Both the position numbers and the translations under genes were made by a program. Of a stretch of DNA of 64,000 nucleotides, positions 56,954-61,466 are shown in pieces (position 1 is the first letter of the stretch; each line of letters opens with the position of its first letter). The notes under the pieces are model-generated. The model did not search any database. It was not told the origin of the DNA and saw only the letters and a list, made by a program, of their open reading frames with translations. The DNA is from Holophagales bacterium (GTDB taxonomy: Bacteria; Acidobacteriota; Thermoanaerobaculia; Multivoradales; Multivoraceae). The stretch covers positions 310,001 to 374,000 of the forward strand of contig VXZQ01000007.1 of the NCBI GenBank assembly GCA_009845425.1, given 5' to 3'.

Positions 56954-58432
56954 GTGAGGCAGACCCGTCGTACCTTCCTGGCCTCTTCCGCTTCGATTCT
57001 GAGCGCCGCGGCCCTGCCCGCCGCGCGACCGCAGGCGGGCAGGGCTCCGAACATCCTGCTCTGCATCTCCGACGACCAGTCCTGGTTGCACACCGGTGCG
57101 GGAGGCGATCCCGTCGTGCGCACTCCGGGCTTCGACCGGGTGGCTTCGGAGGGGGTTCTCTTCACGCAGGCCTTCTGCGACGCGCCGACCTGCGGGCCCT
57201 CGCGGAGCGCGCTCCTTACGGGTCAGCCGATCTGGCGCCTCAAGGAGGCCGGGAACATCCACAGCACCCTGCCGGCGAAGTTCGCCACCTACACGGAGAT
57301 GCTGGAACAGGCCGGCTACGCCATCGGCCACACCCTGAAGGGCTGGGGTCCGGGACGGCTGGAGCCGGGTGGCAGGACGCGGAACCCGGCCGGAGACAGG
57401 TTCGGAGGTTTCGAGGAGTTCCTCGGTGCGCGGGATGGGGAGCAGCCGTTCTGCTTCTGGCTTGGCAGCTACGACCCGCACCGGCCGTACACGGCGGGAT
57501 CGGGGCAGGAGTCGGGCAAGGATCCGGCGAAGGTCGACGTCCCGCCACACCTCCCGGACCATCCCATCGTGCGCGACGACATCCTCGACTACTACGTCGA
57601 GGTGGAGCGCTTCGATGGGAGGGTCGAGGCCGCGCTCGCGCTCCTCGAGCAGGCGGGAGAACTCGAGAACACCCTGGTCGTCGTCACCAGCGATCACGGC
57701 ATGCCGTTCCCGCGGGCCAAGGCCAGCCTGTACGACTACGGCAGCCGGGTGCCCCTGGCGGTTCGCTGGGGCGAGGCGATTCCCGGCGGTCGGGTGGTCG
57801 ACGACTTCGTCAGCCTGAGCGACCTGGCGCCGACCTTCCTCGAGGCGGCGGGACTCGAGCCGGCGGCGGAGATGACGGCGAGTAGCCTGTTGCCGTCGCT
57901 TTCGTCTTCGGCCGGCGGCCGCGTGGAGCCGGACCGGGACGCCGCCTTCATCGCGATGGAGCGGCACGACGGCTGCCGCCGCGGCGGCAAGGGCTACCCC
58001 TGCCGGGCGATTCGTACCGAGAGCCATCTCTACATCCGGAACTTCGAGCCGACGCGTTGGCCTTCTGGCTCGCCGAACGCGAAGGACTGCGCCCGGGGAA
58101 TCCCCTACGGCGAGATCGATTCGTCGCCGACCAAGACCCTGATGATGGAGTCGCGAGACGAACCGGGAATCGATCATCTGGCGGAGCTTTCCTTCGGGAC
58201 CCGGCCCGAGCACGAGCTCTACGACCTGCGAAGCGATCCGGGCCAGTTGAACAACCTCGCGAGCGACCCGTCGTCGCGGCCGATCCTGGAGCAGTTGCGG
58301 GATCGCCTGATGGACCATCTCGCAGCGACCGGCGATCCGCGCGCCCTGGGCCTGCCCGCGCCCTGGGACTACTACCCCTACTACGGCCGGAGAGTGAACG
58401 AGGACTGGGAGGTCGACGCACCACCGGGCTAG
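56954..58432 (+). CDS. Sulfatase, Tat-exported (heparan N-sulfatase-like)
   Basis: A 492-residue sulfatase starting at GTG 56954 with R-R-T-F-L Tat motif. Formylglycine Cys80 in C-G-P-S-R-S-A-L-L-T-G, metal residues in C-I-S-D-D-Q-S and S-D-H-G-M-P-F. The C-G-P-S-R variant and W-x-x-K-Y-like C-terminal region fit the sulfamidase-like branch (inference). A probable selenoprotein gene follows 30 bp downstream on the same strand. Confidence 0.9.
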   Translation: MRQTRRTFLASSASILSAAALPAARPQAGRAPNILLCISDDQSWLHTGAGGDPVVRTPGFDRVASEGVLFTQAFCDAPTCGPSRSALLTGQPIWRLKEAGNIHSTLPAKFATYTEMLEQAGYAIGHTLKGWGPGRLEPGGRTRNPAGDRFGGFEEFLGARDGEQPFCFWLGSYDPHRPYTAGSGQESGKDPAKVDVPPHLPDHPIVRDDILDYYVEVERFDGRVEAALALLEQAGELENTLVVVTSDHGMPFPRAKASLYDYGSRVPLAVRWGEAIPGGRVVDDFVSLSDLAPTFLEAAGLEPAAEMTASSLLPSLSSSAGGRVEPDRDAAFIAMERHDGCRRGGKGYPCRAIRTESHLYIRNFEPTRWPSGSPNAKDCARGIPYGEIDSSPTKTLMMESRDEPGIDHLAELSFGTRPEHELYDLRSDPGQLNNLASDPSSRPILEQLRDRLMDHLAATGDPRALGLPAPWDYYPYYGRRVNEDWEVDAPPG

Positions 58433-58462
58433 AGTTGCGCCAACCCACTGAAGGAGAAACAG

Positions 58463-58792
58463 ATGAGCAGAGTCGACTGGTACTACCACCGAAACGGCTG
58501 AACAAGCTGCAAGAGAGCGTCCAAGTTGATGGACGCACGCGGCGCGGAGATAGCGGACAGGACTCCGGCGAGCCGGAAGTTGGGGAGGGCCGACGCGGAG
58601 GCGCTGCTCGCCGACGCGCAGACTCTCTACGTGGCCAAGGGCCGCAAGCAGACGGAGCTGCCGGCGTCCGACCCGGGCGCGGCCGACCTGATGCTTGGCC
58701 CGACGGGCAACCTGCGGGCGCCGGTGGTCAGGGTGGGCCGCACGCTGATCGTGGGCTACCACGAAGAGGCCCTGAGCAGGGCCTTGGGTTGA
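58463..58792 (+). CDS. Probable selenoprotein: thioredoxin-fold (ArsC/glutaredoxin-like) UxxC protein
   Basis: A 109-residue protein if UGA at 58499-58501 is read as selenocysteine (residue 13). The N-terminus reads D-W-Y-Y-H-R-N-G-Sec-T-S-C-K-R-A, a redox UxxC motif (Sec13, Cys16) at the head of the first helix of a thioredoxin fold. Near the end G-N-L-R-A-P-V-V-R-V-G-R resembles the cis-Pro loop. AAGGAG sits 6 bp before ATG 58463, so translation starts upstream of the UGA; the frame stays open on both sides. A perfect hairpin follows the UGA (58517-58536). A gene caller would report only 58526-58792 and lose the active site. Confidence 0.82.
58517..58536 (+). promoter_or_regulatory. Candidate bacterial SECIS hairpin
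   Basis: GCGTCCA-AGTTGA-TGGACGC: a perfect 7-bp stem with a 6-nt loop, inside the coding region. The loop begins 22 nt after the UGA and has G at its second position followed by U, matching bSECIS expectations (stem plus small apical loop with an early G, 16-37 nt from UGA). SelB would bind it to bring Sec-tRNA to the UGA. Confidence 0.75.

Positions 58793-58883: not shown

Positions 58884-61466
<2,583 letters not shown>

Follow-up and report, generated by a model that had tools for sequence, protein, structure and literature searches.

The locus examined here raises the question of how one codon is read: a UGA twelve codons downstream of an ATG start codon, in a short open reading frame of the window (the whole stretch of 64,000 nucleotides that was analysed). 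The frame starts with the ATG at 58463, runs for 12 codons to the TGA at 58499-58501 and continues with 96 sense codons to a stop TGA at 58790-58792. The original prediction was a selenoprotein with Sec as the first residue of a UxxC motif, and all signals it described (Shine-Dalgarno sequence, ATG, 12 codons, in-frame UGA, UxxC and 96-codon frame) are present:

58451 to 58456, forward strand: Shine-Dalgarno sequence AAGGAG, 6 nucleotides ahead of the ATG, read from the sequence
58463 to 58792, forward strand: predicted Sec-containing ArsC-like gene with its ATG at 58463, 109 amino acids including Sec13, followed by the stop TGA
58499 to 58510, forward strand: predicted UTSC active-site motif, with the Sec codon UGA at 58499-58501 and the partner Cys16 at 58508-58510

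A purine-rich site similar to AAGGAG is also found 5' of the start codon of most homologues. A mechanical open reading frame call takes TTG 58526 as the start and loses the active site, just as had been anticipated for ordinary annotation. Other frames stay open far longer, one of them for 276 amino acids across the same DNA, and long frames are common in this GC-rich window. An open frame with a hairpin could occur by chance in GC-rich DNA; the single sequence is thus suggestive only, and the relatives have to decide.

The simplest reading is that the UGA is a true stop codon or the product of a sequencing or assembly error, and that the locus is either a pseudogene or a gene starting at TTG 58526, exactly where the mechanical call begins. 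The relatives argue strongly against this. Matches to the family were found in 55 of 99 related genomes and each of these 55 has exactly one in-frame TGA; likewise, every match above 51 bits in a sample of the phylum has the TGA. A public genome set contained 532 stretches coding for a relative, and the best 80 of these, all separately assembled, have TGA at the Sec position without exception (80/80). The residues that follow the TGA in these best 80 are TSC (70), TGC (5), TTC (4) or STC (1), and the record names are from Acidobacteriota, Myxococcota, Gamma- and Deltaproteobacteria, Gemmatimonadetes and Entotheonella. Because the UGA is at the same codon in the 80 best relatives, from several phyla, a sequencing error is excluded. 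Moreover, Y8 and R10, both encoded ahead of the UGA, are invariant, and a hairpin downstream of it covaries (see below). Reading the codon as a stop or an error, with or without a pseudogene, is refuted by the TGA in the 55 matching genomes and in the best 80 of the 532 stretches, together with the covarying hairpin, and has practically no probability left. The nearest named relatives are metagenome-assembled genomes labelled Acidobacteriota, Thermoanaerobaculia, Holophagales or Candidatus Multivorans, many of them presumably of sponge origin.

A search of the homologues for Cys at the Sec position, suggested with the original prediction, found the Sec/Cys pairing: UGA is present in the near relatives (the best 80 of 532) and Cys in the distant ones, with CSTC or CTTC in each of the seven stop-free distant relatives whose sequence was read (ArsC/Spx/YffB). 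The distribution of the UGA form also follows that of SelB: in the phylum sample, SelB is over the cut-off in 43 of the 45 genomes that carry the UGA form, versus 9 of 36 genomes that have stop-free relatives only (Fisher p 1e-11). The two UGA-form genomes with no SelB match over the cut-off are both fragmented assemblies. Among relatives up to class level nearly all genomes (92/99) have SelB over the cut-off, and it is instead the phylum sample that is informative.

Two variants were seen among the homologues. One homologue (L080:977-1333, minus strand) has UTSS: it keeps the UGA but has Ser where the partner Cys would be. In addition, the same class has a second, Spx/YffB-like ArsC lineage with an in-frame TGA (KPSUTSCRKA), which matches NF041106 weakly:

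L060:1489-1833 and L061:1483-1821: loci of the second ArsC lineage

The source genome (4.3 Mb in 17 contigs, 98% complete) has the complete set of genes for bacterial selenoprotein synthesis, for which the original prediction had proposed a scan (selA, selB, selC and selD): SelA (442.7 bits), SelB (358.7 bits, with winged-helix domains), SelD (249.9 bits) and a tRNA-Sec with the anticodon UCA (72.6 bits). A second selenoprotein family that was tested, NF041114, is absent from the genome, and neither an Rfam scan nor a tRNA search of the window gave a match. The machinery also bears on whether the UGA might encode Cys or Trp, either through a suppressor tRNA or through a reassigned code. Cys at the UGA position of distant homologues would fit such a reading, but TGA serves as the stop codon of the very same gene (58790), as it does in most congeners, the Sec machinery is complete and accompanied by a SECIS at the right spacing, and the next-best matches to the tRNA-Sec model that were examined in the genome are tRNA-Ser; decoding as Cys or Trp is therefore very improbable. 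Three findings had been named in advance that would speak against a selenoprotein, namely lack of the machinery, random residues at the Sec position of homologues, or a sequencing error; all three were tested and none held.

Two features of the machinery genes are recorded here as side observations. The 3' half of the tRNA-Sec gene is present as a perfect direct repeat of 54 nucleotides, 30 nucleotides past the 3' end of the gene, and resembles an attachment-site scar or a local duplication. SelD forms the C-terminal part of a fusion whose N-terminal part is a pyridine nucleotide-disulfide oxidoreductase domain.

L002:1413-1466 and 1497-1550 (genome contig C12, near 459757): copies of the tRNA-Sec 3'-half repeat
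L009:1393-3759, minus strand (genome contig C17, near 135423): fused SelD gene

The next question is whether the mRNA has a signal for Sec insertion. A hairpin is found shortly downstream of the UGA:

58517 to 58536, forward strand: putative bSECIS hairpin GCGUCCA-AGUUGA-UGGACGC, loop at 58524-58529, early loop G at 58525

The hairpin is present as it had been described, with a perfect stem of 7 bp (GCGUCCA/UGGACGC, 58517-58523 with 58530-58536) and a loop of 6 nucleotides (AGUUGA) that has G at loop position 2, followed by U. Published criteria for a bSECIS are a stem of 4-16 bp, a loop of 3-9 nucleotides with G within the first two loop bases, a loop start 16-37 nucleotides after the UGA and an MFE <= -7.5 (PMC13188914). 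The hairpin falls within all of these: the stem has 7 bp, the loop 6 nucleotides with G at position 2, the loop starts 22 nucleotides after the UGA and the hairpin has -10.7 kcal/mol. Synonymous recoding yields an equally stable hairpin about 10% of the time (p ~0.1; single sequence), and codons within and outside the hairpin do not differ significantly in invariance among 8 diverse members (Fisher p 0.27), a point that the larger set described next decided.

Covariation was examined in 68 distinct sequences with the same type of hairpin as this gene. In these sequences 94.7% of the cells are paired, versus 88% in shuffles and 24-40% when partners are slid. Changes on both sides of a pair were seen 25 times, versus at most 16 times in 2000 shuffles, which make no correction for kinship, and at most 6 times in slid controls, which keep kinship. 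The third base of codon 20 (C) and the third base of codon 21 (G) are invariant in 68/68 sequences; this G is base 2 of the apical loop, at which the bSECIS model needs G. The pair 21-36, formed by the third positions of Ala19 and Asp/Glu24, switches among G-C, C-G and A-U and is mismatched in about one fifth of the sequences. The family has three forms of the hairpin, which differ slightly in position and all keep an early loop G: the form of this gene, a second form (GCACC-CGUGA-GGUGC) with the loop 18 nucleotides after the UGA, and a third form (GCGCAGGA-GUU-UCUUGCGC) with changes on both sides at three pairs. The claim of a bSECIS at the expected distance is thus borne out by the published criteria and by covariation in 68 distinct sequences. 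The case for a selenoprotein rests on comparison of sequences, namely on UGA conservation in the best 80 of 532 stretches and on the covarying hairpin, and the UGA is almost certainly read as Sec in a small redox protein with a thioredoxin fold.

What kind of protein is it? It matches the NCBIfam family NF041106 (ArsC_rel_Se_1, 'ArsC family (seleno)protein') with 96.8 bits (E 1e-27; cut-off 85) and has Sec as the first residue of UxxC (UTSC), as in the family alignment. The Pfam ArsC domain (PF03960) is found with 26.2 bits (cut-off 24). In an alignment of 38 diverse members Y8, R10, Sec13, G60, G79, G82, R85, A86, P87, G92 and G98 are invariant and Cys16 is near-invariant. With regard to the arsenate-binding Arg triad of ArsC, the invariant Arg residues noted are R10 and R85. 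A search of the PDB by sequence gave no match of weight. The AlphaFold model has a mean pLDDT of 96.1 and, compared with solved structures, is nearest in fold to Spx (Z 9.4, rmsd 2.6 over 87), an ArsC-related protein (Z 8.9, rmsd 2.8 over 89) and YffB (Z 8.7, rmsd 2.6 over 85), followed by NrdH-type redoxins (Z ~8), which is consistent with the thioredoxin fold of the original prediction. These Z values, even the best of 9.4, are little above the level that a common arrangement could explain; the assignment to ArsC also has the support of the sequence families PF03960 and NF041106.

With this family assignment, the protein could be a Sec-using true arsenate reductase (ArsC): it has the ArsC-family domain, and the fold comparison also matched arsenate reductase structures (Vibrio, Z 7.8; E. 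coli, Z 6.6). Its fold is nearer to Spx and YffB, though, and its UxxC layout is like that of Spx, YffB and Grx and unlike that of E. coli R773 ArsC, which has a single catalytic Cys. Furthermore, the neighbours of the gene outside the genus, judged by eye, appear unrelated to arsenic, and we consider a true arsenate reductase unlikely. The high rank of Spx, with several of the matched structures bound to the RNA polymerase alpha C-terminal domain, could instead point to a regulator that senses redox state through Sec and acts on RNA polymerase. If so, gene regulation would be coupled to the selenium supply by way of SECIS-dependent translation. Identity to Spx is just 18-23%, the Spx/MgsR family model TIGR01617 reaches only 19.1 bits (far below its cut-off of 75.05) and a fold in common shows no function; a Spx-like regulator is highly unlikely.

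UGA conservation, SECIS covariation, Sec machinery, membership in NF041106 and fold prediction all favour the selenoprotein, and it is very probable that the gene product is an NF041106 selenoprotein, a UxxC thiol-disulfide oxidoreductase with Sec13 directed by SelB and the hairpin. In the proposed mechanism, SelB with Sec-tRNA(Sec) (anticodon UCA) would bind the hairpin, which starts 15 nucleotides downstream of the UGA at 58499-58501, and Sec would be inserted at residue 13 during translation. Sec13 would be the attacking and Cys16 the resolving residue of the UxxC couple, so that the product would work as a small thiol-disulfide oxidoreductase of the glutaredoxin or ArsC type. A small Sec-Cys thiol-disulfide oxidoreductase, with a predicted redox chemistry, is the most likely and best-supported function.

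The gene lies between a sulfatase and a Lon protease:

56954 to 58432, forward strand: sulfatase (PF00884), upstream neighbour, ending 30 nucleotides before the gene
58884 to 61466, minus strand: Lon protease (Pfam Lon domains), convergent downstream neighbour

Within the genus, the gene is mostly found between these two. The upstream sulfatase is absent or interrupted in some congeners, and neither sulfatase nor Lon was found beside the homologues outside the genus. Upstream of the homologues at L030 and L020, the sulfatase is fragmented or rearranged, and another sulfatase-like fragment points the opposite way. The original prediction had placed the gene next to a sulfatase operon; a functional operon with the sulfatase was rejected, because the sulfatase is broken or absent in some congeners and the synteny stops at the genus. 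The gene acts as a unit of its own.

The original prediction held that this could be an undescribed family, which is not supported: the NF041106 cut-off is passed and the family is listed in the literature. A 2026 review has NF041106 as 'Arsenate reductase-like protein, UxxC', gives MDE3003982.1 as its representative and credits the 2008 Global Ocean Sampling (GOS) paper (PMC13188914), and this 2008 GOS survey has 'Arsenate reductase 2, cd03032, UxxC' with 42 sequences (PMC2398784). This protein and NF041106 are the same family by curated cut-off, UxxC motif and length, and nothing of substance differs; with about 89-97 bits, this lineage falls short of the best-scoring members seen (about 130 bits). 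Arsenate reductase 2 is also an ArsC/Spx-like UxxC selenoprotein, known from metagenomic reads and likened here by its description, while Arsenate reductase (ArsC) 1 of the same survey (pfam03960; PMC2398784) is an ArsC-family selenoprotein too, but with UxxS instead of UxxC. Spx, YffB and E. coli R773-type ArsC share with this protein the thioredoxin fold, the place of the active residue and the Arg-containing loop before a Pro; they differ in having Cys instead of Sec and somewhat longer chains, with 14-23% identity.

The gene product thus belongs to a described selenoprotein family and presents no new family or mechanism. The finding speaks for UGA being decoded as Sec in this lineage of acidobacteria, it shows that a standard open reading frame call truncates such a gene, and it provides a clean natural data set of covarying bSECIS elements within one family.
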